A DNA stretch of 53,884 bases from Peptococcaceae bacterium BRH_c4b (GTDB lineage Bacteria; Bacillota; Desulfotomaculia; Desulfotomaculales; Desulfocucumaceae): contig LADO01000011.1 in the NCBI GenBank assembly GCA_000961595.1, positions 1 through 53,884 of the forward strand, read 5' to 3'. A program made the position numbers and the translations under genes. Below, one piece after another: positions 1-11,048 of this stretch; the stretch's first letter is position 1; every line of letters starts with the position of its first letter. Under the pieces are notes generated by a model. That model did no database searches. It saw nothing but the letters and a program-made list of their open reading frames with translations, and had not been told where the DNA came from.

Positions 1-165
1 ATACCGTGCAAAACAAGATAACCCTTAAGGTATTTCTCGGCGGATTGATGGCAGTGATAGCAGATAATTCACAGGGACAGGATGCATGTTGAGTAAATAT
101 TCGGCACTGCTTAAATCCATTTCCGCAAGCCTTTGCCATTCCTGCGCGCGGGTGTGCTTATCCAT
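1..165 (-). pseudogene. HEPN-domain protein, N-terminal part, frameshifted and cut by the window edge
   Basis: The minus strand from the ATG at 165 reads MDKHTRAQEWQRLAEMDLSS and continues AEYLLNMHPVPV, a typical HEPN-domain start. The frame then breaks near 67-72. The expected continuation, ICYHCHQSAEKYLKGYLVLHG, is intact in another frame out to position 1. So about one base has been gained or two lost, or there is a sequencing error. The start overlaps the end of the MNT gene (158-481) by 8 bases, the usual MNT-then-HEPN order of a toxin-antitoxin pair. The C-terminal half with the RNase motif lies outside the window. HEPN proteins of this class are usually RNA-cleaving toxins or, in some pairs, substrates modified by the MNT partner. 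Confidence 0.7.
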
Positions 166-481
166 ACAGCACCATGCCCTCTTGGGCTATTTGCCGCTCA
201 ATGGTGGGAGTGGATTTGCGTTGGTTAAACTTATTTTTTTTGCTGACTATCACATCCACAGGCATTGTTTTTTTATCCCGGATTGCTCTGTGGATCAACC
301 TCATTGCGTCAATTTCCCGAAGATCTGTATTCTCTGACATCACCACATAAATATCCAGGTCTGAATCAGCATGCGGCGTACCGCTTGCGTAGGAGCCGAA
401 CAGGAATATCTGCTCCACGGGAATGGTGTTCACGATGATATCTTTAAGGATGTTCAACTCATCCCGGATTCGTTTTTCCAT
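158..481 (-). CDS. MNT-type minimal nucleotidyltransferase (antitoxin candidate)
   Basis: A 107-residue protein of the minimal nucleotidyltransferase family. The core motif is GSYASGTPHADSDLD at about residues 29-43, which fits the family pattern GSX10DXD. The two aspartates bind metal for nucleotide transfer. A second acidic position (PVDVIV, about residue 75) completes the usual fold. The start is supported by a GGAGGTG ribosome site a few bases upstream. It precedes and overlaps a HEPN gene by 8 bases; in such pairs the MNT protein neutralises the HEPN toxin, in studied cases by adding AMP groups. The partner here appears frameshifted, so the pair may be inactive. Family assignment is firm; target and activity are inferred. 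Confidence 0.85.
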   Translation of the reverse strand: MEKRIRDELNILKDIIVNTIPVEQIFLFGSYASGTPHADSDLDIYVVMSENTDLREIDAMRLIHRAIRDKKTMPVDVIVSKKNKFNQRKSTPTIERQIAQEGMVLYG

Positions 482-880
482 ATCGGCACCTCCCTCTATT
501 TTCAGTATATCCCGGCAGTTTCAGTATTACTACCTAGCGTAGATATAACTATTATATCATAATTTTTGGAAAAAAGTAAGGAATCAGCTCGCATAAAAAT
601 CTCCTAAAATAATCCATCGTTCTCTGTGGAAGTCCTCGAACTTTTCGGTGGCGCAGTTACACACACAACAGGGGCGTCTTTTCTTTCCAACAGATATGGT
701 CATTATATACAGCAATTTCCGGTCAGGCAATTCCGTCAGCTTTTGGGCTTTTTGGCTCAGCCGCAACAGTTAGACATCCTTCTTAAGAAAAGTAGGATTT
801 TGGGATTTGATGTCAAATGTTTTATAATAAGGTTTTTTTGCTGTTATAGGCCATTTAAATCTGAGTAAGGAGGTCCAAAG
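482..880. other. Intergenic stretch between the MNT gene and the Wadjet remnant
   Basis: No convincing gene. A 60-codon open frame on the minus strand (584-766) contains CCVCNCATEKF but has no ribosome site and no recognisable family; it might be the tail of a lost gene. The last bases hold the ribosome site AAGGAGGT (867-874) that serves jetA. Confidence 0.4.
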
Positions 881-2373
881 ATGACCCCTGATAATCAGTC
901 GGGACATCGCATGAGCACAGGCCTCCCCCTGGATTATGACACCCTGGAGACCATGCGCCGCAGCCATCCTGCTTGGCGACTCTTGATAGCCGACCACGCG
1001 CCCCTCATTATCAGCTTTTTATACCGCGTCTTTGTTGTGCCCAACATCCGTGGCATCGCCCAGGCGGAGTTAACCGCCAAATTAGAGGACGAGCTGTTCC
1101 AACTAAGGGAGTCACGGGGCGAGGACGTTTTTTCCCGATCGGCCTCCAAGTACCTGGAAGAATGGGCACAAGACGGTCGCGGGTGGTTACGCAAGTACTA
1201 CCCGCCCGGCTCGGATGAAGCCCATTTCGATTTGACCCCGGCCACCGAGAAGGCCCTGACCTGGCTGGAAAGCCTTACCCAGCGGGCCTTCGTTGGCACT
1301 GAGTCACGTCTTTTGACAGTCTTCGAGCTCCTACGGCAGATAGTAGCTGGCAGCCAAACCGATCCGCAGTTGCGCATCGAAGACCTGCAACAGCGAAAAA
1401 AAGAGATAGATGTAGAGATAAAACGCATCCAGGACGGTGAGGCGCCCTTACTGGATGAGACGGCCCTGAAGGATCGCTTTCAGCAGTTAGCGACCACGGC
1501 CCGGGAGCTTTTGAGCGATTTCCGCGAAGTGGAGGAAAACTTTCGGTTGCTGGACCGCACCACACGGGAGCGTATCGCCCTGTGGGAGGGAGCCAAGGGC
1601 GGCCTTTTGGAATCGGTTTTTGGTGAGCGCGATACCATCGCGGATTCCGACCAGGGCAAAAGTTTCCGCGCCTTCTGGGATTTCTAAATGGATCCCCACC
1701 GGCAGGAGGAGCTCTCGACTCTCTTGGACTTCGCATTCACCTTGCCTGCCATCCGCACCATGGGGCCGGATGCCCGGCTGAAACGGATCCACTACGACTG
1801 GCTGGAGGCCGGGGAACACACCCAGCGCACCGTGGCTTTGTTGTCCCAGCAACTGCGTCGCTTCCTAGACGACCAGGTATGGCTGGAGAACCGACGCATC
1901 ATGCAGGTACTGCATGAGATTGAGGCTCATGCCCTGGCCATCCGCCATGCCCCGCCATCAGGCCCCTTTATGGAACTTGATGACACCGGGCCGGACCTGG
2001 CTCTGCCGATGGTAAGGCCTCTGTTTTCCCCGCCGCTGCCATCACCGACCAGGTACTGGAGGACGGCGACGTCTCGATCCCGGCCGACATCCTTTTCGAG
2101 CAAGTGATAGTGGACAAAGCCAGTCTGGTAGCCAGGATCCGCCGGGCTTTGATGGGGCAGGAGCAGATCACCCTGGCGGAGCTGTTGGCGGAATATCCGC
2201 TAGAACACGGTTTGGCGGAACTCGTTGCCTACCTGACCCTGACTGGGGAAATGCCGTTCACGGCCATCTTCGATGAAAGCTTTTCCGAAGTGGCCTATTG
2301 GATTGATGCGGAGGGGGTGCATAAAAATGCTAGACTGCCGCGTGTCATCTTCACCCGGGAAAGATCGGCCTGA
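881..2373 (+). pseudogene. jetA: jetA (Wadjet subunit, DUF3375), broken by a stop codon and a frameshift
   Basis: Three adjacent reading frames together make one full-length JetA of roughly 495 residues. Part 1 (881-1687) starts after AAGGAGGT and runs from SHPAWRLLIADHAP to RAFWDF, ending in TAA. Part 2 continues in the same frame at 1688 with MDPHRQEELSTLLDF and IHYDWLEAGEHTQRTVA, so the TAA is a nonsense change inside the gene. Near 2010-2035 the frame shifts: after RPLFSP the expected AAAITDQVLEDGDVSIPADI is in another frame, which continues as part 3 (to 2373) with VDKASLVARIRRAL and ends [13 protein letters not shown]. JetA is the kleisin-like core subunit of the MukBEF-related Wadjet complex that cuts circular plasmids. 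Two independent lesions argue for real decay, since jetC is also truncated. Confidence 0.85.
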
Positions 2374-2962
2374 ACTCGACGGCCAAAACATCTCGGAGGT
2401 TCTAATCGCGTTGCTGAAAGGGGTCATATACCGGGACACCCACCCGGAGCTTTGGTCCGCCTTGCGGGGGTTGCAAGCTACGGTTCGCGACTACGTGGCC
2501 GTCCTCGGCCTCGAACTTTTGCTGAACGAAGCGGAAGGATACGCGTGGCTGCGTAGTCGGCCCGCTCTTGAGGGGACGCCCGTATTGCCCCGGTTGGTGG
2601 TCAAACGCCAGCTCTCCTTCCCTGTGAGCCTGCTGTTAGCCCTCCTGCGCAAGAAACTGGCCGAGTTCGACGCTACCGGAGGCGACACCCGTCTGATCCT
2701 CTCCCGGGATCATGTGGTGGAACTGGTCCGCGTGTTCCTGCACTCCGGCACGAACGAGGCCCGGATGGTGGACCAGCTGGATGCCCATTTGAATAAGATC
2801 TGCGAACTCGGCTTCCTGCGCCGCCTGCGTGGCAATGATAACCTATTCGAAGTGCGCCGCATCCTGAAGGCCTTCGTCGACGCGCAATGGCTGGGCGAGT
2901 TTGAGCAGCGCCTGGCGGAATATCGGAGCCATATGGTCGGCGGAGAGGGAGATGTGGAATGA
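2327..2962 (+). CDS. jetB: JetB (Wadjet subunit, DUF4194)
   Basis: A 211-residue protein of the JetB/MukE-like DUF4194 family. Recognisable stretches are [43 protein letters not shown] (about residues 50-75) and [12 protein letters not shown] near the C-terminus. The ATG at 2327 was chosen because GAGGGGG lies 9 bases upstream; the frame is open 18 codons further upstream, but that part overlaps the end of jetA. The stop overlaps the jetC start (ATGA), as in working jet operons. In the Wadjet complex JetB binds the JetA kleisin and helps clamp DNA. This frame is intact, but with jetA broken, jetC cut short and no jetD in the window, it has probably lost its role. Confidence 0.85.
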
Positions 2963-3267
2963 GTATCGCCAAAAAAATCGAAAACATCCGGCTCGATTTC
3001 GCCGACCGGGACGCTCAGGCCGGCTACCGTCTCCATCGGCTGGAGGTTTACAATTGGGGCACTTTTGACCGCAGAGTCTGGACGTTTAAACTGGACGGGA
3101 ACAACGCCCTTCTTACCGGCGACATCGGTTCCGGGAAGTCCACCCTGGTGGATGCCGTTACCACCCTCCTGATCCCCCCACAGCGCATCACGTACAACAA
3201 GGCGGCGGGGGCGGAGGTCAAGGAGCGTAGCCTGCGCTCCTACGTCCTGGGGCATGACGGTGCCTGA
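2959..3267 (+). pseudogene. jetC: jetC (Wadjet SMC-like ATPase), truncated after Walker A
   Basis: Only the first ~98 residues of a protein usually over 1000 residues long. The N-terminal ATPase half is clear: [18 protein letters not shown] and the Walker A motif GDIGSGKST (about residues 54-62), then RSLRSYVLG, which normally continues with a KSER-like stretch. Similarity stops at about 3253. The frame then runs into GGTGCCTGACCCTTAACTT, a repeat also seen at 9811, and ends. The coiled coils, signature motif and Walker B are missing, as is the jetD nuclease gene. The start overlaps jetB by four bases. The break coincides with the beginning of the ssrA-scar region, so the loss was probably caused by an insertion or deletion there. 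Confidence 0.9.
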
Positions 3268-3348: not shown

Positions 3349-3550
3349 TGGTGGAGGCGGGGGCATCTTAATTCAGTGTCCGAGAGAACCACTACAGGAG
3401 TGTCTCGCAAGCGCTGCGCTGCAGTTTGCATCTCGCTCCTTTGGCGACTACAGTTGGCCTTCGCGGGAGTGATCTCGATAATTATCCCGTCAGGCCTCCG
3501 AGAATTGGCCTGAAAGCTAGCCCGTTTAAGTACGCCCCAGACCAGGCTAA
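3349..3550 (-). pseudogene. ssrA: ssrA (tmRNA) 3' remnant A
   Basis: About 200 bases matching the 3' two-thirds of the intact tmRNA at 10697-11048, same strand. It begins TGGTGGAGGCGGGGG, the complement of the CCA end and acceptor stem. It keeps GTCCGAgAGAAC, CCTCCGAGAATTGGC and the AGCCCGTTTAA stretch. The T-arm (AGTCGAACCC in the intact gene) is replaced by CATCTTAATT, and the tag and 5' domain are missing, so it cannot work. The pseudoknot stem reads TCAGGCC/GGCCTGA where the intact gene has TTAAGCC/GGCTTAA. That paired change is shared with copy B, so A and B descend from a different tmRNA lineage than the resident gene. Confidence 0.85.
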
Positions 3551-3662
3551 GCTATACTAAATTCATATCATAATACCCAATATATACCAGGCAAGGCAAG
3601 AACCGTCCCTACTTGCCCACACTGCATTGAGAAAATTTGTTGCTAATATACCACAAAACAAA
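3551..3662. other. Spacer between two ssrA remnants
   Basis: Short AT-rich spacer with no gene. It contains AAGAACCGTCCCT (about 3599-3611), which recurs inverted near 8788 as AGGGACGGTTCTT. Confidence 0.4.
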
Positions 3663-3698
3663 AACTGCCGCATTATTTTTTTGCAATGCGACAGTTTT
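3663..3698 (-). terminator. Intrinsic terminator of ssrA copy B
   Basis: On the minus strand AAAACTGTCGCATT, a short loop, then AATGCGGCAGTTTTTGTTTTG: a long stem with a T-rich tail directly after the 3' end of ssrA copy B. Confidence 0.75.
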
Positions 3699-3709
3699 CG
3701 ACAGGCGGG

Positions 3710-3940
3710 GGCATCTTAATCAAATGTCCGAAAGAACGACCACAGGAGTGTCTCCGAGCGCAGACTGTGATTTGAATTTCGCGCCCTTGGCGGCCACAGT
3801 CAGCCTCCTTGGGAGCTATCTCGATAATTGTCCCGCCAGGCCTCCGAGAATTGGCCTGAAAGCCAGCCCGTTTAAGTGACCCCCTAGCCCGGGCCACGGG
3901 CCCAGCTCAGGTAGGAGGTTAACTGCTAATTAGGGGATAT
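3710..3940 (-). pseudogene. ssrA: ssrA (tmRNA) copy B, 3' part, separated from its 5' part at 8830-8912
   Basis: About 230 bases aligned with the intact tmRNA from its 3' end back to the tag stop codon. Conserved stretches include TGTCCGAAAGAACGACCACA, CCTCCGAGAATTGGCC and GGGCCACGGGCCCA. On the minus strand it begins with the TAA stop of the tag reading frame (TAATTAGCAG; the intact gene has TAATTGCAG). Just before that stop it is joined to tolC-like coding sequence. The complementary 5' piece, ending in the last tag codon, lies at 8830-8912 on the other strand and is joined to the tail of the tolC-like gene. The T-arm is replaced as in remnant A, so even when joined this copy would be defective. 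Confidence 0.88.
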
Positions 3941-4219
3941 TACTTCGGACTTGGTGGCCATGCCGATATCAAATTTTACCTGAGTTATCTTGTAGCCCTG
4001 CTCTGCGGTGGCTAGGCTGGCCGTCAGGCCGCTGTAGGTGTCCTCCAATTGCCTTAGGGAGTAATACAGCGTTCTTAGCGATTTGGCCAACTCTATTTTT
4101 TGGTCGGCCAGCCTGTTTTGCCAGTATGCGTTTTCGTCAGCCAAGTCAGCCACTTTTTTCTTTTTCTCAGCCAGCAGCACCGCGTTATAAGATTGTTTTA
4201 CAGAGTAGGCAATAGTACC
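3941..4219 (-). pseudogene. tolC-like gene 2, N-terminal/middle fragment fused to ssrA
   Basis: A helical fragment including TIAYSVKQSYNAVLLAEKKK and QGYKITQVKFDIGMATKSEV, typical of the long periplasmic-barrel helices of TolC/outer-membrane-factor family proteins, which Desulfotomaculum-type bacteria encode widely. The homology ends at about 3941, exactly where ssrA copy B begins. Its C-terminal part (QLELEKLKQQMLDLNIQHDN ... AFDKPW) is found at 8913-9025 on the + strand. The fragment follows the stop of tolC-like gene 1 in the same frame, so its own N-terminus was lost in an earlier deletion. Confidence 0.8.
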
Positions 4220-4505
4220 CTATTCCCCTGCAGTCGAGGAAGAAGCTGCTGAAGCGGCCCATGGCTTCTGGAAAGCGAGCTTAGCATAAGCGTGCTGAAC
4301 GTTCAATTCTACCAGGTTATTTTTTTGCCTCTGCCACCGCCGTCTCCCTTTCCGTGAGGTTCTCCAGCGTAATCATTCCAAGTTCGTAAGAGAGTTTGGC
4401 CACCCGCATGGCCTCTTCGGCTCCGGCCAACGCCTTTTCAGCTGCCAGTCGCCCCGCCTCCAGGTTGCGTACGGTGTAATATAAGCCATATGTAGCCAGT
4501 CTCAC
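4220..4505 (-). pseudogene. tolC-like gene 1, C-terminal fragment with a frameshift
   Basis: Reads RLATYGLYYTVRNLEAGRLA and KLSYELGMITLENLTERETA, then AVAEAKK and a stop. The expected continuation (NNLVELNVQHAYAKLAFQKP, W, then an Ala/Ser-rich end) follows in another frame after a run of seven T (4320-4326), so one base was lost in the homopolymer. This is the C-terminal third of a TolC-like efflux or stalk protein. No start, signal peptide or N-terminal domain is present, so it is a remnant. Confidence 0.78.
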
Positions 4506-4557
4506 AACAATAACATGGCAATTTTTTTCACACTAACTTAGGTACCCGGTACCCAGC

Positions 4558-5118
4558 TTAATTCAGCTCAGCCTTCAGCCTCCGGACGGTTTCCTGGTCC
4601 AGGCCGGTTATCTCAGCAACGACGTCTTCCGGCAATCCCCTTTTCAGGGCCGCCCTGGCGGTTTCCACTGCTTTTTTCATTTCGCCTTCTTTTATGCCTT
4701 CTTTTATGCCTTCCTGCCAGCCTTCCTTGATGCCTTCCTGCCTGATCCACTGCTCGATCTGGGTCATTTTCAACACCTCCAGCAGCCTTTTTTTATAGTC
4801 TTCCGACATGAACCGATCAGTCACCGCCACCAGTGCGCCGATGACGAATGTTTTGATTTCTCCGGCTATGTTCTTAGCCAGTTCCGCCGCCTGTACGGCC
4901 ATTTGGTCTTCGGTCAGGCTGCTCTTCATCAGGGGCAGGAATACCAGCTTCAGTATTTCTTCTTCATGCTTGCTCAATCCTGGGTGTGTTCAGGCCGAAT
5001 ATCTTCAGCGTCTTGTCCTTGAACGTCCCGGCCATCGCTTTCATGATCACGTCGTTTGCCTGCCTGGTTACCTCGGCTTCCAATTCGACACCTTCTTCTA
5101 CACCTTCTTTTGGGGTTA
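4558..5118 (-). pseudogene. Rpn/PD-(D/E)XK recombination-promoting nuclease family, internally deleted
   Basis: The open part (4558-4977, 139 residues from a TTG) is the C-terminal half of an Rpn-family protein: a helical region with FVIGALVAVTDRFMSEDYKK, then a run of IKEG/WQEG repeats (about residues 82-98) and a C-terminal stretch PEDVVAEITGLDQETVRRLK. Upstream on the same strand, in another frame, is the family N-terminus (AEVTRQANDVIMKAMAGTFK, DKTLKIFGL). The two are joined at about 4975 with the central nuclease core missing. Rpn proteins are DNA endonucleases that promote recombination and are often mobile. This copy lacks the catalytic region and is dead. Confidence 0.75.
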
Positions 5119-5433
5119 TTATATCAATTATACTGCATCTGCCCGTCTGAGTGAAGGGCTTTAAAAAGGGACGGGCTGCTTTTTAGACTGAAGATTTATG
5201 ATGAAAAAGCAGCCTACCCCCTTTTCTTTCCCGGACCACGGGCCGGGTCTATAGAAAGATTTATTTCAATAACTTAATAGCTTAGGTACCCGGCACCGGT
5301 TGGTCGAACCATCCCCGTCGACACATGACGGACTTGTCAACAACGTCCCCAATTTGTCCTCAATAATAATTAAAACGATCCGATAAAACTTAGTAGAGAA
5401 AAAAGTAAAAGTGGGTGTATTGTTATTTTTTTT
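5119..5433. other. Intergenic region before sigI
   Basis: No gene seen. It contains GGTACCCGGCACCGG (about 5284-5298), a relative of the GGTGCC palindromes; CTTAGGTACCCGGTACCCAG at 4537-4556 is similar. A short hairpin-like GGACCACGGGCCGGGTC lies at 5235-5251. The region should hold the sigI promoter, but I could not identify it by eye. Confidence 0.4.
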
Positions 5434-6171
5434 GATAGATCAAGAAAAGCGCCCGGAGATATTGACGTTCTTTTAAGCAGGGCAAGAAAAGGCGACGGCG
5501 ACGCCAGGGAAGAATTAATCGAAGGGCGCCAAAAATTTATTGAAAAAACAGTTGCCCGCCACACCCGTACTTATTCGGATATAAAAAGCAGGGATGAGTA
5601 CAGCGTAGGGCTGATGGCCTTCAACGAAGCTATCGATAAATTTGACCCGCGCCACAACCGCGCTTTTCTTTCTTTCGCCGGCGATGTGATTAAAATGCGG
5701 ATTATAGACTATTGCAGAAAAAATAAGGCAGGAGTGAACTGCGTCCCCTTCTCCAGCTTTGAATGTTCGGAAGAACTCTCTTTCGACCGCCCGCAAGCCG
5801 GCTCTTTCGACCCGGTAGGGGAAAGGGTGGAGCGGGAAAGCGATATGAATTCCTTTCTGGCCCAGTTAAAAGAATTTAAAATAAGCCTGGACGACCTGGT
5901 GAAAAACACCCCCAAGCACCGGGACTCACGCCTGCTTTCAATAAAGATTGCCCGAATCATCGCCGGTGATCCAGTATTGCTGAGCGGTTTGCATAAAAAA
6001 AAGGTAATTCCTTTAAAAAAACTGTTGGAAAAAATTGAAGTTAACCCCAAAACCGTGGAAAGGCACCGAATATATATTATAACAATATGCCTTCTGTTCA
6101 CCGGCAACCTGGAAAACCTGAAAGGCTACATCGAACAGACAGAAGAAAGGGGTGGGAACGATGGTTTATGA
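5434..6171 (+). CDS. sigI: RNA polymerase sigma factor SigI
   Basis: A SigI-type sigma factor of about 245 residues. The N-terminal region 2 reads RSRKAPGDIDVLLSRARKGD, KFIEKTVARHTRTYSDIKSR, then NEAIDKFDPRHNRAFLSFAG and IIDYCRKN. The SigI C-terminal domain with its helix-turn-helix follows (PLKKLLEKIEVNPKTVERHR). The first ATG is at 5614, but that would remove most of region 2. The frame is open and clearly coding back to about 5434, with no ATG, GTG or TTG in frame. A GTG at about 5413 is out of frame across a run of eight T (5426-5433). So either the homopolymer carries a one-base indel or an ATT start is used. The gene ends inside the start of rsgI, its anti-sigma factor. SigI factors respond to heat or to extracellular polysaccharide. 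Confidence 0.85.
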   Translation, partial: DRSRKAPGDIDVLLSRARKGDGDAREELIEGRQKFIEKTVARHTRTYSDIKSRDEYSVGLMAFNEAIDKFDPRHNRAFLSFAGDVIKMRIIDYCRKNKAGVNCVPFSSFECSEELSFDRPQAGSFDPVGERVERESDMNSFLAQLKEFKISLDDLVKNTPKHRDSRLLSIKIARIIAGDPVLLSGLHKKKVIPLKKLLEKIEVNPKTVERHRIYIITICLLFTGNLENLKGYIEQTEERGGNDGL

Positions 6172-7390
6172 GGGTACGGTGGTTGGCCTAAAAAAACGAT
6201 CTGCCGTGGTTATGACCGGCGACTGCCAGTTTAAAGAGATAAAGAGGACACCCGCCATGTCTAGCGGCCTTAAAGTCCACTTTACCGACGCCGACCTTTT
6301 CAAACCAGCCATCAAAGCCCCCCTGCGCTTTACCGCCATTGCCGCTTCCCTGCTGGTTTGCTTTGTGTTGGCCTATTCACTTCTACAAGAGATTACAGGT
6401 AAGCGCGTTTTTGCCTACATCAGCCTAGAAGTTAACCCCGCCCTGGAAATATCTCTGGATAAGGAAATGAAGGTCATTAAAGCGACCGGCCTCAACCGGG
6501 ACGGCCAGGACGTAGCCAAAGGGCTGAAAATACGGGGGCAAGACGCCGGTGAGGCGGTTCAGGCCGCGCTCAGCGCATGCGTGGAGAGCGGCTACATTAA
6601 CGGTGACCACAACCGGGTGCTTATTGCCACTACTTTTACTGTAAAAAATGATGAACTGCAGGAGGAACTGGACTACCGGATCTGGGAGGCTGCCCGTAAG
6701 GGTGTGGCGGCGAGCCCAAGCGAGGCCTCGGTGTATATTTTTAATGCCGATCCTGCCTTGAGAGAGCAGGCCCTTAAGAAAGGAGTATCCGCAGCCCGCT
6801 ACCTGCTCTGGCAGGATGCGCAAAGCAACGGCCTCCAATGCGATCTTGACGGCCCGCTATCCGGCCCCGGTTTCAGCCGGTCGGCCAACAGACTATCGCT
6901 TCCGTTTGCTGAAAGGGTCGTCCCGGATAACCATGCCGCCCCCGACCCGGTTCCTCCGTCCATGCTCAATGGCTGGGTAAATCAGGCTCCCTCCTCCCCT
7001 GGTTCCGAGGCGGCCCCTGGCAACTCCGGCAACCAATTTAGAGGCGAGTTTATCCCACCGGGTACAGGCGAGAACACAGATAACGGTAAAGAAAAACGCA
7101 GCGGCAGGCCGGGCGATTCCGGGGATACCACCCCGGCAGGCCCCGGCAAAACGCAAACAACAAATGGCGGTCTCGTTACGCCCGCCACAGACGTTAAGGA
7201 TAACAAGCCCGCCCCCGACCCGGTGGTATCCCCCGGTGGGGCTAACAATAACAGGCCGACATCCTCCAGCGATGCCGCTAACTCTACAAACAATAGCCCC
7301 TCATTAAGCGACCCCGCCGGTGGAGCTAAAGTAGGCGGCTCCAGTTCGGGTGGAGGCAGTAGCTCAGGTTCCGGCGGCAGTGGGTGGTAA
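6161..7390 (+). CDS. rsgI: Anti-sigma-I factor, RsgI family
   Basis: About 409 residues. The N-terminal RsgI domain (MVYEGTVVGLKKRSAVVMTG, residues 1-40) binds SigI in the cytoplasm. One membrane helix follows (FTAIAASLLVCFVLAYSLL, about 65-83), then an extracellular domain with YISLEVNPALEISLDKEMKV, the conserved periplasmic part of RsgI proteins. The last ~170 residues are a low-complexity Pro/Gly/Ser/Asn-rich tail ending GGSSSGGGSSSGSGGSGW, with no recognised carbohydrate-binding or protease module. The ATG at 6161 was chosen for the AAAGGGG site upstream; a GTG at 6152 is possible. It overlaps sigI by 11 bases, the usual coupled arrangement. The signal sensed is unknown. Confidence 0.88.
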   Translation: MVYEGTVVGLKKRSAVVMTGDCQFKEIKRTPAMSSGLKVHFTDADLFKPAIKAPLRFTAIAASLLVCFVLAYSLLQEITGKRVFAYISLEVNPALEISLDKEMKVIKATGLNRDGQDVAKGLKIRGQDAGEAVQAALSACVESGYINGDHNRVLIATTFTVKNDELQEELDYRIWEAARKGVAASPSEASVYIFNADPALREQALKKGVSAARYLLWQDAQSNGLQCDLDGPLSGPGFSRSANRLSLPFAERVVPDNHAAPDPVPPSMLNGWVNQAPSSPGSEAAPGNSGNQFRGEFIPPGTGENTDNGKEKRSGRPGDSGDTTPAGPGKTQTTNGGLVTPATDVKDNKPAPDPVVSPGGANNNRPTSSSDAANSTNNSPSLSDPAGGAKVGGSSSGGGSSSGSGGSGW

Positions 7391-7449
7391 AAAAATTTGT
7401 TTTTATACCCCCAAAAAATATCGTCATTCCCGAAAATAGATGTAAGAGA

Positions 7450-7480
7450 AAAAACTTGCCTTCCCAGGAGGCAGGTTTTT
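7450..7480 (+). terminator. Intrinsic terminator after rsgI
   Basis: AACTTGCCTtcccaggAGGCAGGTTTTT: 9-bp stem followed by a T run. It separates rsgI from the next gene, whose ribosome site begins about 13 bases further on. Confidence 0.8.
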
Positions 7481-7504
7481 AAAAAAACAGACGGAGGTAT
7501 GATT

Positions 7505-8497
7505 ATGAAAAAGTTAAAACACGCGCTTGTTATGTCGGTTATGATCGGGTCGTTGTGTATCTTGCCCGCAGCATTCAACCAGGCGGGCGCCGCTGAAACT
7601 TCATCGGGCAGTGTTTCGGTTTCAGCGCAAGGTGGCTCAGACTCCGGTGCAGGTTCCGATACAGGTTCCGGTACAGGTTCCGGTGCAGGTTCCGGTGCAG
7701 GTTCCGGTACAGGTTCCGGTACAGGTTCCGGTACAAGCTCAGACGCAAGCTCCCTTTCCGGTAATCAAAACCCCTCCCAAAACCAAGCTCAACCCACGGA
7801 GCGGGAGAAAACCAGGGAAAACGCCCCGGATAAGGTTAGCGGCCAACAGGCAAGCCGGGTCATGGAAAATGCTCGGGGTACCCTAAAACAAATCAGGGAG
7901 CAGACCAGGGACCAGGCAGGGGAAAAATGGCAGGAACTGCGCGAGCAGATCAACCAGGTCAAGGAGCAGCGCAAACTGCAGCAGATAACCATGGAAGAGG
8001 CCAAAATCATGATCCGCGAATCCCTTGAACTGGCCAAGGAGCAGCAAAACCTCGAAGAACAGGAAAACAGCCTGAAAGATCTGATTGAAACCGATCCGGC
8101 CGACAAGGAGGCCTATAAAGAACTGGGCGCCACCTACCGGATGAGGGAAGAACACGGCATAAAAGTATTCTCCAACGGGGTGGGAATCAAATTCGATGTC
8201 CCTCCGGTTATCAAGGAAGGCCGCACCCTGATCCCGGTCAGGGCTCTCACCGAAGCGCTCGGGGCAACGGTAAACTATGACGCCGAAAACCAGACAGTGA
8301 CAGTCACCAAGGATGGCACCACCATCGTCCTGACCCTCGACCAGAATGTCGCCCTTGTCAACGGCCAGGAAGTGACCCTTGATGCCAAGGCGGAACTGAA
8401 CAACTCCCGGACCATCGTCCCCTTGAGGTTTATCGCCGAAACATTTAAGTTGAATGTTGGCTACTACCCTGAGGGAGAAATCGTCACTGTAAATTAA
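7505..8497 (+). CDS. Secreted copper-amine-oxidase N-terminal (stalk) domain protein, tail cut by a stop codon
   Basis: A 330-residue exported protein. MKKLKHALVMSVMIGSLCIL followed by PAAFNQAGA is a signal peptide with cleavage near residue 28. A GSGTGSGA low-complexity repeat (about 45-75), a Gln/Glu/Lys-rich coiled coil (about 105-215) and a C-terminal stalk domain follow: RTLIPVRALTEALGATVNYD (about 260-280) and RTIVPLRFIAETF (about 308-320), the two half-repeats of the CuAO_N1 family. The ATG at 7505 has GGAGG at proper distance; one at 7499 is too close. The frame stops at TAA 8495-8497 but stays open for 43 more codons to 8629, encoding a Thr/Gly/Asn-rich tail (TGTTTESNT twice). The stop therefore looks like a recent nonsense change that removed a low-complexity tail. 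The role is probably cell-surface attachment; function unknown. Confidence 0.82.
   Translation: MKKLKHALVMSVMIGSLCILPAAFNQAGAAETSSGSVSVSAQGGSDSGAGSDTGSGTGSGAGSGAGSGTGSGTGSGTSSDASSLSGNQNPSQNQAQPTEREKTRENAPDKVSGQQASRVMENARGTLKQIREQTRDQAGEKWQELREQINQVKEQRKLQQITMEEAKIMIRESLELAKEQQNLEEQENSLKDLIETDPADKEAYKELGATYRMREEHGIKVFSNGVGIKFDVPPVIKEGRTLIPVRALTEALGATVNYDAENQTVTVTKDGTTIVLTLDQNVALVNGQEVTLDAKAELNNSRTIVPLRFIAETFKLNVGYYPEGEIVTVN
7641..7735 (+). repeat. GGTTCCGGTACA / GGTTCCGGTGCA tandem 12-mer in coding sequence
   Basis: About eight tandem 12-base units encoding GSGT/GSGA inside the secreted stalk-domain protein. Such arrays change length by slippage in units that keep the frame. Confidence 0.9.
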
Positions 8498-8632
8498 CCT
8501 GCTACGGATACTATCACAGGAACCACCACAGAAAGCAATACCAGTTGCGCCACGGGAACAACCACAGAAAGCAATACAGGGGGCACTACAGGAAGTACTA
8601 CTCGAAATACCGGAACAAACCCACAGTAATAT

Positions 8633-8678
8633 AACAAGAATGCCGGGTGCTAGTACCAACGCATCCGGCATTCTTGTT
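8633..8678 (+). terminator. Intrinsic terminator, long hairpin
   Basis: AACAAGAATGCCGGgTGC ... GCAtCCGGCATTCTTGTT: near-perfect ~17-bp stem just after the original end (8629) of the stalk-protein frame. It has a T-rich 3' arm rather than a long T run and may act in both directions. Confidence 0.7.
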
Positions 8679-8829
8679 AACTCTACAGTATTATAAGGGA
8701 GTTATCACGATGAGAGTCCTATGAGTCTCGTAAGCGCTTAATCAAAGGGTGCATGGTCAAGGAATAGTGGAAATTTAGGAAATTTAGGGACGGTTCTTGA
8801 ATTGAATGCCAAGACAGAGGAAAAGATGA
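8679..8829. other. Spacer before the ssrA 5' fragment
   Basis: No gene seen. It contains AGGGACGGTTCTTGAATTGA (near 8788), an inverted relative of 3599-3611. Confidence 0.35.
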
Positions 8830-8912
8830 CAGGAGTAGCGAGCCGGGGTTCCATCAGCCCGCAATACGGTGGAAAACTTATAATTGCCAACAACGAATAC
8901 GCTTACGCTGCT
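8830..8912 (+). pseudogene. ssrA: ssrA (tmRNA) copy B, 5' part with tag sequence, inverted
   Basis: Matches the minus strand of the intact ssrA from CAGGAGTAGCGAGCCGGGG through AATACGGTGGAAAAC to the tag. The tag reads GCC AAC AAC GAA TAC GCT TAC GCT GCT (ANNEYAYAA); the resident gene reads ANNEYALAA then TAA. Homology ends exactly after the last alanine codon, and the stop codon side of this copy is at 3940 on the other strand. The first ~35 bases of the tmRNA (acceptor strand) are also missing. Beyond the break lies the C-terminus of tolC-like gene 2. Confidence 0.88.
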
Positions 8913-9025
8913 CTCAACTGGAACTGGAAAAACTGAAGCAGCAGATGCTGGATCTCAACATTCAGCATGACAATATGCAAATGGCCTTCGACAAGCCGTG
9001 GGTATCCACCGGTACCGCCCAGTAG
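8913..9025 (+). pseudogene. tolC-like gene 2, C-terminal end, fused to the ssrA 5' fragment
   Basis: Reads QLELEKLKQQMLDLNIQHDN then MQMAFDKPWVSTGTAQ and stop. It ends like tolC-like gene 1 (LNVQHAYAKLAFQKPW), which identifies it as a TolC-family C-terminus. Its front part is at 3941-4219 on the opposite strand. A hairpin terminator follows at 9049. Confidence 0.8.
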
Positions 9026-9048
9026 AAGAACGTGCCGAATACTAAAAA

Positions 9049-9086
9049 CATGAAGAATACCGGGAGAAATCCCGGTATTCTTCATG
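9049..9086 (+). terminator. Perfect hairpin after the tolC-like tail
   Basis: CATGAAGAATACCGGG agaaat CCCGGTATTCTTCATG: a 16-bp perfect stem. A very strong hairpin, probably the original terminator of tolC-like gene 2. Confidence 0.75.
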
Positions 9087-9128
9087 TAACTCAACTATGT
9101 TGGATGAGGGATAGGGCGCTTTGACGCG

Positions 9129-9641
9129 CTATGATTGTTTTTCTATACGCAGCAGGCGGAGTTCCCGGTCATGTTCTCTTATACGGGCATCCGTGTCAAT
9201 TGACCGGTGGAAAAGAGACTCAATACCATCCTCGATACGTGCCTGACTGTCCCGTATGCTGGCAAAGTAGTCCATGTATAATGTGTGGGTGTCAAAGAGG
9301 ATACGGATTTTGTCTATGACTTCGTTTTCAATTCGGGTTTCCAATTTCAGCTGGTTGGTTTCCAAGTTATCAACCTTGAATTCCAGCTTGCCGACAGCGC
9401 CTTCCAGGTTGTCCACCTTGACTTCCAGCTTGCCGACAGTACCTTCCAGTCTGTCCACCTTGACTTCCAATTTGCCGACAGCGCTTCCTAGGCTGTCCAC
9501 CTTTTCTTCCAGCTTGCCAAAAGAGTTTTCTATGTTGTCAACCTTTGATGCTGTCTTAACTTGGTTTTCTTCCAGATTGTCGAAACGATGGCTTAGTTTT
9601 TTTACTTCGGCAATAATTTCTTTTAATAATTGTTCACTCAT
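9129..9641 (-). CDS. Coiled-coil protein with four 14-residue repeats
   Basis: A 170-residue hydrophilic protein, almost entirely coiled coil. After an N-terminal MSEQLLKEIIAEVKKLSHRF there are about four imperfect repeats of the type VGKLEVKVDxLEGA (roughly residues 43-98), each 14 residues or two heptads. A helical tail follows with LFDTHTLYMDYFASIRDSQA and a basic end. There is no signal peptide or membrane segment. A similar architecture is common in small Firmicute proteins of unknown function, some phage- or plasmid-linked. I do not recognise a function. It lies between the inverted segment and hicBA within the ssrA-associated accessory region. Confidence 0.75.
   Translation of the reverse strand: MSEQLLKEIIAEVKKLSHRFDNLEENQVKTASKVDNIENSFGKLEEKVDSLGSAVGKLEVKVDRLEGTVGKLEVKVDNLEGAVGKLEFKVDNLETNQLKLETRIENEVIDKIRILFDTHTLYMDYFASIRDSQARIEDGIESLFHRSIDTDARIREHDRELRLLRIEKQS
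9375..9545 (-). repeat. 42-bp tandem repeats encoding the coiled-coil units
   Basis: Four imperfect 42-base units containing CTTCCAGCTTGCCGACAG separated by GTCCACCTTGACTTCCA. The period of three times fourteen keeps the heptad phase, so the protein can lengthen or shorten by recombination. Confidence 0.85.
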
Positions 9642-9810
9642 CTGATTAGTTTCCTCTAAGACACTTTTTTATACAACGGCGCTATGTTGTTAATATTATA
9701 CAATTTTCAAGCCAGATAGTCGATATCTCAATCTAAATAAAAGGGGACAGGTTTTTTTACAACTCCAAGACTGATACAAAAAATGCAGCATTTTCCATAA
9801 AATAAGGGGC

Positions 9811-9925
9811 TTGACGGTGCCTGGCCCTTAACTTATTAACTTATTTTACCATATCGATAAAGGGCATAAAAAAAGCGAGTTGTCAGACACTCGCTTTGAG
9901 ATTCTTAGAAGGTGAGGGCGGGGCA
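9811..9925. repeat. GGTGCC/TTAACTT repeat, minus-strand terminator and short ssrA-end scrap
   Basis: GACGGTGCCTGGCCCTTAACTT ... TTATTTTACC repeats the sequence at the jetC break (3256-3291). It is followed by a minus-strand terminator (AAAGCGAGTgtctgacAACTCGCTTTTTTT, 9868-9898), then GTGAGGGCGGGGCATCT (9906-9922), matching the altered ssrA 3' ends of remnants A and B (GGCGGGGGCATCT). The order repeat, terminator, ssrA end is the same as at 3256-3365. I read it as a further scar of the same kind. The terminator probably serves hicA. Confidence 0.6.
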
Positions 9926-9926
9926 T

Positions 9927-10148
9927 CTATAGTAAGTCTATAAGTTCGTCAACGGATAGACCGGCTTGTTCCAGGATACTTTTAACAATAACCGGGCTGA
10001 GTGTTTCACCTGTATGTACGGGAATGGTTACTAGGCGGCTTCCGGGCCGATGGAGGTGATAGTGACTTCCGGTGACCCTGATTACAGAGAAACCAACGTG
10101 TTTTAAAGCGGCAACCTTCTTACCGGTAGTCCTCGGTAATCTGGTCAC
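9927..10148 (-). CDS. hicA: HicA-type mRNA interferase toxin
   Basis: A 73-residue HicA/YcfA family protein with a small dsRNA-binding-like fold. The key region is GFSVIRVTGSHYHLHRPG (about residues 18-35). It contains the G-S-H-x-H motif with the catalytic histidine, followed by VTIPVHTGETLSPVIVKSIL. It cleaves mRNA when free of its antitoxin. The start overlaps the end of hicB by four bases. The gene is complete; a terminator follows at 9868-9898. Its order (antitoxin first) is one of the two known for hic pairs. Confidence 0.92.
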   Translation of the reverse strand: MTRLPRTTGKKVAALKHVGFSVIRVTGSHYHLHRPGSRLVTIPVHTGETLSPVIVKSILEQAGLSVDELIDLL

Positions 10149-10372
10149 GATACGTTGACCTGTACTTCGGCAAATTCAACGTCTCCCTTAGGAACCGGCT
10201 GGCCTATAATTTTTAGTGCCTTGATATGGCCGGCAATCGCCTCATGTGCTCGTTCCAACGCCTCCTCCCGGTTTTTTCCCTGGGTCACACAGCCGGGCAA
10301 TGCGGGGACGGTCACAGCGTATACCTTTTCTTCACTGTCCCATTCCAGTACTAATTTGAACTTACGTATCAA
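10145..10372 (-). CDS. hicB: HicB-type antitoxin
   Basis: A 75-residue HicB/UPF0150 protein: KFKLVLEWDSEEKVYAVTVP, ALPGCVTQGKNREEALERAH, then EAIAGHIKALKIIGQPVPKG. The conserved ALPGCVTQG turn is present. No C-terminal ribbon-helix-helix or HTH DNA-binding domain is seen, so it is the short form, which may neutralise HicA without repressing. The start is TTG at 10372 with GGAGGG six bases upstream. It is paired with hicA downstream. Confidence 0.92.
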   Translation of the reverse strand: MIRKFKLVLEWDSEEKVYAVTVPALPGCVTQGKNREEALERAHEAIAGHIKALKIIGQPVPKGDVEFAEVQVNVS

Positions 10373-10418
10373 TGCAATCCCTCCTTGTATTACAGGCAGG
10401 CGGTTTATTGATAATATA

Positions 10419-10454
10419 TGGTGGAGGTGTGGGAGTTGACCCCATACCCGAAGG
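10419..10454 (-). repeat. ssrA/tRNA 3'-end-like scrap
   Basis: TGGTGGAGGTGTGGGAGTTG followed by ACCCCATACCCGAAGG resembles the last ~36 bases of ssrA (TGGTGGAGGCGGGGGGAGTC, GAACCCACCGTCCGAAAG), CCA end included. Unlike A and B, it keeps a T-arm-like AGTTGACCC. It lies between the hicB promoter side and a second hicB-like remnant. It is probably an old attachment-site copy left by an integrating element. Confidence 0.5.
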
Positions 10455-10455
10455 T

Positions 10456-10636
10456 CTAGGTCTTGAGATCTTGGGCGTTCTTATCTGACAGGCACAGTTT
10501 TATTACTTCTTTATTCTTGTCTCCAGGTCGCCCGAGATTATCGGCCTGGTATGACATCCAGGCAGGGCGGGAACCGAAGCTATATAAATCCGTCTTCATC
10601 TTTTTCGATTAGTATTGTAAATCTGTGTTTTTGCAA
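10456..10636 (-). pseudogene. HicB-like (UPF0150) antitoxin remnant, frameshifted
   Basis: From a TTG at 10636 the minus strand reads QKHRFTILIEKDEDGFIASV then PALPGCHT, the classic HicB/UPF0150 N-terminus. It then loses the expected frame (RPIISGDLETRIKK, stop). The normal tail EVIKLCLSDKNAQDLKT continues in the next frame to a TAG at 10456. It differs in sequence from the intact hicB beside it and has no toxin partner, so it is a remnant of another hic pair. Confidence 0.72.
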
Positions 10637-10663
10637 CACATCTTCCCCTTTACCGGGAGTTTC

Positions 10664-10691
10664 AAAAAAAGCCAGCTATAACAGCTGACTT
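10664..10691 (-). terminator. ssrA terminator
   Basis: On the minus strand AGTCAGCTGttaTAGCTGGCTTTTTTT: 8-9 bp stem with a run of T, directly after the tmRNA CCA end. Confidence 0.85.
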
Positions 10692-10696
10692 ATAAG

Positions 10697-11048
10697 TGGT
10701 GGAGGCGGGGGGAGTCGAACCCACCGTCCGAAAGAACGACCACAGGAGTCTCTCCGAGCGCAGACTATGATTTAGATTTCGCGCCCTTGGCGGCCACAGT
10801 CAACCTCCGCAGGTGCTATCTCGATGAGAGTCCCTTTAAGCCTCCGAGAATTGGCTTAAAAGCAAGCCCGTTTAAATGACGCCTCAGCCCAGGCCACGGG
10901 CCCAACGCGGGTGAGACGTTATCTGCAATTAAGCAGCTAAAGCGTATTCGTTGTTGGCAATTAAATGTTTTCCACCGTATTGCGGGCAGATGGAACCCCG
11001 GCTCGCTACTCCTGCCACCAATTCCCCCGTCGAAACCATTACGCCCCC
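10697..11048 (-). ncRNA. ssrA: Transfer-messenger RNA (intact)
   Basis: A 352-base tmRNA. The 5' end GGGGGCG (11048 downward) pairs with CGCCTCC before the terminal CCA (10697-10699). The 5' domain carries GGTTTCGACGGGGG, typical of tmRNA, and the T-arm TTCGACT is present. The tag reading frame GCC AAC AAC GAA TAC GCT TTA GCT GCT TAA (10960 down to 10931) encodes ANNEYALAA, ending in the Ala-Ala degron read by ClpXP-type proteases. Pseudoknot stems such as TTTAAGCC/GGCTTAAA are complete. It rescues ribosomes stalled on broken mRNA together with SmpB, whose gene ends 10 bases upstream. ssrA 3' ends are frequent integration targets, and several damaged copies lie to the left. Confidence 0.97.

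Follow-up and report, generated by a model that had tools for sequence, protein, structure and literature searches.

The locus

The window, meaning the whole stretch of DNA analysed here, comprises 53,884 nucleotides of contig LADO01000011.1 from Peptococcaceae bacterium BRH_c4b (the source genome). It contains one intact ssrA (tmRNA) gene, several displaced ssrA pieces and a number of decayed protein genes (Table 1). The intact gene, copy A, is presumably the working ssrA and the sole recognisable tmRNA gene of the window. Downstream of it lie two separated parts of a second copy (copy B) and an older 3' fragment (copy C), the latter placed 0.15 kb past copy B. Chance can be excluded for these three extra pieces because their blastn E-values range from 1e-29 to 1e-61; against copy A, the 5' part of copy B gives an E-value of 3e-32 and the 3' part 5e-61. 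The 3' part is 93% identical to the intact ssrA of the related MAG Peptococcaceae bacterium BICA1-7 (G005) and carries a rewritten T-loop, ATTAAGATGCCCCC, which is also found in copy C. The first-pass annotation of this DNA had omitted copy C and, in describing the rearrangement discussed below, the intact ssrA.

Table 1. Coordinates of the features discussed (window positions unless another contig is named)
Feature	Position	Strand	Evidence and remarks
Displaced ssrA ends with ATTAAGATG next to CCCCCGCC	3349-3372, 3697-3720	-	
Copy C, older 3' ssrA fragment, ssrA positions 155-352	3349-3547	-	blastn, 75% to copy A
Dispersed 15-nt repeat TAGGGACGGTTCTTG	3597-3611	-	Upstream of copy C
Copy B, 3' part, ssrA positions 118-346	3703-3932	-	Outside block; blastn, 82% to copy A
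Inverted block	3933-8912		4,980 bp; delimited by flipping in silico and by the breakpoint grid
TolC-like relic 2, front part (OEP family)	3933-4216	-	Pfam PF02321; tblastn with full-length TolC homologues; internal deletion
First TolC-like gene, C-terminal remnant	4259-4505	-	tblastn; Pfam PF02321; frameshifted near 4320
Rpn-like remnant	4558-4977	-	Repeat-rich C-terminal part only, without a Pfam match; closely related sequences in G007
sigI-rsgI pair	5425-7390	+	Pfam Sigma70_r2, RsgI_N, RsgI_M
Stalk-domain (Cu_amine_oxidN1) protein	7502-8497	+	Pfam PF07833
Dispersed 15-nt repeat TAGGGACGGTTCTTG	8785-8799	+	Just upstream of copy B
Copy B, 5' part, ssrA positions 18-117	8813-8912	+	Inside block; blastn, 89% to copy A
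TolC-like relic 2, C-terminal tail	8913-9022	+	tblastn hits 8894-9016, frame +2
Copy A, intact ssrA (tmRNA), tag ANNEYALAA	10697-11048	-	ARAGORN; Rfam RF00023, 198 bits
Displaced ssrA ends with ATTAAGATG next to CCCCCGCC	BICA1-7 C33 153050, 157288	-	

Between the two parts of copy B, the first-pass annotation had listed a sigI-rsgI pair, a stalk-domain protein and an Rpn remnant. Pfam bears out the first two, but the Rpn-like remnant matches no Pfam domain. The sigI-rsgI-stalk-domain set (5425-8497) recurs in the same order on source-genome contig C44 (L108), and a further set is found in BICA1-7 (C17). On the far side of copy C, a broken Wadjet system adjoins (881-3267, plus strand) with jetA in two frames, jetB, and a jetC cut at 3267 of which the first 102 codons remain. 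This cut falls at a repeat, TGACGGTGCCTGACCCTTAACTT, that also occurs near 9813-9846 and beside the BICA1-7 counterpart of copy B.

A precise inversion through two genes

Two reciprocal junctions bound the inverted block. At the right junction (8912/8913, plus strand), the ssrA part ends precisely with the final Ala codon of the tag ANNEYAYAA, and beyond it a TolC-like C-terminus (..QLELEKLKQQML..AFDKPW..) runs on to a stop at 9022. At the left junction (3932/3933, minus strand), a TolC-like reading frame is followed by an ssrA part which opens at the tag stop TAA (3932-3930). To locate the cuts, a breakpoint grid was used in which an 80-nt match spanning the ssrA junction was scored for neighbouring cut positions. 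The optimum, 72 of 80 matches, was found for cuts at 3933 and 8912, with 40-54/80 off the equivalent diagonal. The first-pass annotation had given the same right junction, exact by blastn and by the grid, and had placed the ssrA cut precisely between the last Ala codon and the tag stop codon, which holds at both junctions. Its left junction, 3940/3941, is eight bases away from the actual one, and a literal flip of 3941-8912 yields just 47/80 matches over the ssrA junction.

Flipping 3933-8912 in silico produces one continuous minus-strand ssrA copy. Flipped copy B aligns without gaps to the intact ssrA genes of BICA1-7 and of the relative G002 and is identical over the breakpoint (TACGCTTACGCTGCT/TAATTAGCAG), its 5' part being 92-93% identical to the BICA1-7 copies. 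The same flip rejoins ..KFDIGMATKSEVIS with ..QLELEKLKQQMLDLNIQHDNMQMAFDKPW.., which matches, without gaps, the C-termini of full-length TolC-like homologues encoded by related genomes (tblastn). No residues are missing, but the join holds one extra C (CCCCC vs CCCC), so that the tolC-like frame is continuous except for a shift of one base. The TolC peptide used for alignment and protein search was therefore joined by hand with the extra C dropped. Gain of one base at a junction is usual in end joining. A single inversion of about 5 kb, as first proposed, thus accounts for both junctions: they are reciprocal to within one base and correctly oriented, both halves are single-copy in the genome, and the flip restores both ancestral sequences apart from the one extra base. 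Copy A, 1.8 kb from the block, was untouched.

When the region was searched for repeats and its two 300-nt flanks were compared, no inverted repeats appeared at the breakpoints; between the flanks, none exceeds 8 exact bases. No recombinase was recognised in the inverted block. The dispersed repeat TAGGGACGGTTCTTG occurs near each end of the block, in opposite orientations, but was rejected as a driver of the inversion, lying ~110-320 nt off the breakpoints and being one of 51 exact copies in the genome. Elsewhere, on source-genome contig C19 (85223-85837), a 25-nt unit that includes the repeat is found 25 times in tandem.

Both broken genes were already relics

A comparison with relatives, as the first-pass annotation had proposed, was informative for the ssrA half of the locus. 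BICA1-7 carries an uninverted copy B at L070:9288-9622 (positions 18-352), 7.6 kb downstream of its intact ssrA and 93.0% identical to flipped copy B. The 5-kb block itself was sought in 7 family members and is absent from all of them; the uninverted state can thus be observed for the ssrA copy only, while we infer the ancestral arrangement of the block as a whole.

Flipped copy B and its BICA1-7 counterpart are degraded alike. At the 5' end, ..GACAG.GGAAAAG replaces ..GACGGGGGAAAAG and the GGGGGCG acceptor strand is missing, while in the T-loop ATTAAGATGCCCCC replaces GTTCAACTCCCCCC. ARAGORN detected no tmRNA in either copy, and flipped copy B has lost the T-arm hairpin together with a functional acceptor stem, T-loop and CCA. 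Because BICA1-7 copy B shares both degraded ends, copy B must have been without a tRNA-like domain already before the inversion. The TolC-like gene cut by the inversion is likewise a truncated relic: its N-terminus and an internal stretch are lost, and a frameshifted TolC remnant adjoins it. The exchange of ssrA and tolC-like halves initially described is therefore real, but as neither gene was functional, no working gene was swapped. Since copy B was already dead, with no function left to preserve or destroy, the cut between last Ala codon and stop codon is best read as a coincidence without visible mechanistic meaning.

A probable island hotspot downstream of ssrA

Copy A, the 3' part of copy B and copy C are all on the minus strand, so that the partial copies lie downstream of the intact gene in direct orientation. 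The same arrangement is seen in BICA1-7, where more ssrA remnants follow at growing distance from the intact gene, all in its orientation. Both genomes share the 246 nt that directly follow the intact ssrA, and the 3' flanks of copy C and of BICA1-7 copy B are homologous to each other. The displaced fragments have their boundary at the T-loop with non-ssrA sequence inside: in the displaced ends of both genomes, ATTAAGATG substitutes GTTCRACTC beside CCCCCGCC. The signature ATTAAGATGCCCCCGCCT marks exactly two displaced ends each in the source genome and BICA1-7, with no others among 113 genomes of the order. Among GTDB genomes the rewritten T-loop end was found in BICA1-7 only, and a search of IMG/VR returned none. 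Phages and plasmids gave a single hit to copy B, a phage record that matches it in part (24%). The rewritten T-loop ATTAAGATG is likely to be either the half-site of an island or the end of an old pseudogene that both genomes share. Displaced ends of this type are common to two genera.

Arrays of ssrA fragments beside ssrA are a known signature of serial genomic-island insertion. In Dehalococcoides, the serine recombinase DsiB directs islands (ssrA-GIs) into the centre of the ssrA T-loop, and direct repeats in tandem are left behind downstream (PMC3146451; PMC2764846). As in the present locus, displaced ssrA 3' ends stand in tandem and direct orientation downstream of a single working ssrA, with a boundary in the T-loop, a non-ssrA motif by the conserved 3' end and variable cargo between. 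In contrast to these islands, whose direct repeats are about 20 bp, the displaced copies reach an unusual 335 nt here; the window also holds no remaining integrase module, and the inversion through a displaced copy is an extra event. The Islander method is built on displaced tmRNA fragments, and an intact tmRNA gene with displaced 3' fragments at island ends is common to its tDNA islands and to our locus (PMC4383910). Its filters demand an integrase gene and a fragment in the same orientation (PMC4383910), unlike the 5' ssrA piece observed here, which the inversion has turned to the opposite orientation. In tmRNA surveys, duplicate ssrA calls that miss one gene end or represent island-integration fragments are a recognised, rejected class, among which we found none described as split into another gene by an inversion (PMC4131195).

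Of the genes scanned from 3349 to 10697, none was recognised as an integrase. The island origin of copies B and C, which we infer, therefore rests on their pattern and on relatives. In G001, a genome of the same genus, an 18-kb contig (C65, L075 1-18377) is bounded by ssrA 3'-end direct repeats of about 95 nt and encodes type III RM-like, primase-like and RadC-like proteins as well as a 534-aa large serine recombinase (PF00239, PF07508, PF13408). The nearest source-genome relatives of this recombinase are on other contigs. The enzyme beside these ssrA repeats is a serine rather than a tyrosine integrase. In G002, a displaced ssrA copy (C22, L072 86-408) adjoins methylase genes, with ruvC further on. 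This copy is near-complete, with an intact T-loop and a replaced 5' end, and its tag is of the ALAA type vs AYAA in the intact G002 gene. Together with the truncated Wadjet system of the window, these cases show ssrA-bounded DNA in the neighbourhood carrying genes for defence or mobility.

In a maximum likelihood tree of ssrA, based on short sequences and of modest support, flipped copy B groups with copy C and BICA1-7 copy B (support 70-82), and this group is placed beside the intact ssrA genes of BICA1-7 and G002, away from copy A. The tree fits, without proving, a replacement of the ssrA 3' part by an incoming element.

Two further similarities were noted in the surroundings. A HicBA-like pair next to ssrA (9927-10372, minus strand) is 97% identical at the DNA level to a pair next to the G002 ssrA, whereas the ssrA genes of the two genomes are only about 86% identical, which makes a recent transfer or a shared recent island probable. 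Window positions 1-651 are 97% identical to a nucleotidyltransferase-like region near the ssrA of G007 (C48, L079 2114-2764), a similarity which suggests recent exchange.

Proposed history and alternatives

We consider it very probable that the locus is an island hotspot with a dead ssrA copy B, later broken by a single, non-homologous inversion through this copy and the TolC-like relic. Islands would have inserted repeatedly downstream of the working ssrA, each time displacing older ssrA copies further downstream in the orientation of the gene (order A, B, C). The 5' loss and T-loop rewriting of copy B would predate either the split of the source and BICA1-7 lineages or a transfer of the copy between them. 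A later inversion with breakpoints 3932/3933 and 8912/8913 and a gain of about one base, presumably by a double-strand break and end joining, would have had one end in copy B and the other in the TolC-like relic, exchanging their halves and carrying along sigI-rsgI, the Rpn-like remnant and the stalk-domain gene.

Since the breakpoints are without inverted repeats, neither homologous recombination nor a switch nor an assembly flip driven by repeats is likely. Regarding the assembly, the genome is in 66 contigs and ssrA pieces are repeated within it, so a contig mis-oriented between two repeats has to be considered. A scaffolding flip requires long identical repeats or gaps. Neither is found here, the junction sequence is just 82-89% similar to other ssrA copies, near-identical inverted repeats are absent from the breakpoints and each junction is base-precise, leaving an assembly error improbable. 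We assign a similarly low probability to separate events, for example two deletions or a duplication and a deletion, resulting in junctions that are reciprocal in appearance only. The region is rich in relics and thus has a past of multiple rearrangements, yet the four half-genes pair up without loss and with a gain of a single base, and their orientations are those an inversion predicts, an outcome that independent events would not produce.

Two readings that would give the arrangement a function are more improbable still. In Dehalococcoides HPR1, inversions occur at attachment-site repeats beside recombinase genes (PMC2764846), so a reversible, recombinase-driven phase switch acting on ssrA could be imagined. 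Here, however, neither inverted repeats at the breakpoints nor a recombinase in the block were recognised, and the single-copy halves and missing flanking inverted repeats argue for a one-off, end-joining-type inversion; the chance of a switch is accordingly minute. Two-piece tmRNAs exist as well, encoded by a permuted gene (PMC11915505), and copy B resembles them in being divided into two parts. Its parts, however, lie on opposite strands 4.9 kb apart next to an intact ssrA, and the tRNA-like domain is lost: the acceptor-stem strand GGGGGCG is missing from the 5' piece, as are the T-loop and CCA from the 3' piece. With these ends missing, we reject a functional two-piece tmRNA.

Implications

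The inversion is unremarkable in kind: it occurred once, between relics, in a hotspot of a known type. It has left a clear scar, probably without consequence, and provides a base-precise example of decay in island hotspots beside ssrA. It also calls for caution in annotation: an ssrA part joined to a protein gene may be the remnant of an already decayed copy, even when the cut sits exactly at the tag stop codon. The length of the displaced copies may point to a further idea, which we regard as rather doubtful: islands of this family might carry most of ssrA (about positions 18-320) as an attachment arm, with ATTAAGATG as the island half-site. In that case, each insertion would swap the 3' part of the chromosomal tmRNA gene and leave a long ssrA look-alike, and the circular junction of an island would link ATTAAGATG-type ends with the CCACCACTTATAAG end. 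This would represent an unusually long tmRNA attachment site together with an ssrA fossil record, and the inversion would still be an accident. The ssrA arrays of this family could help to date serial island insertions.
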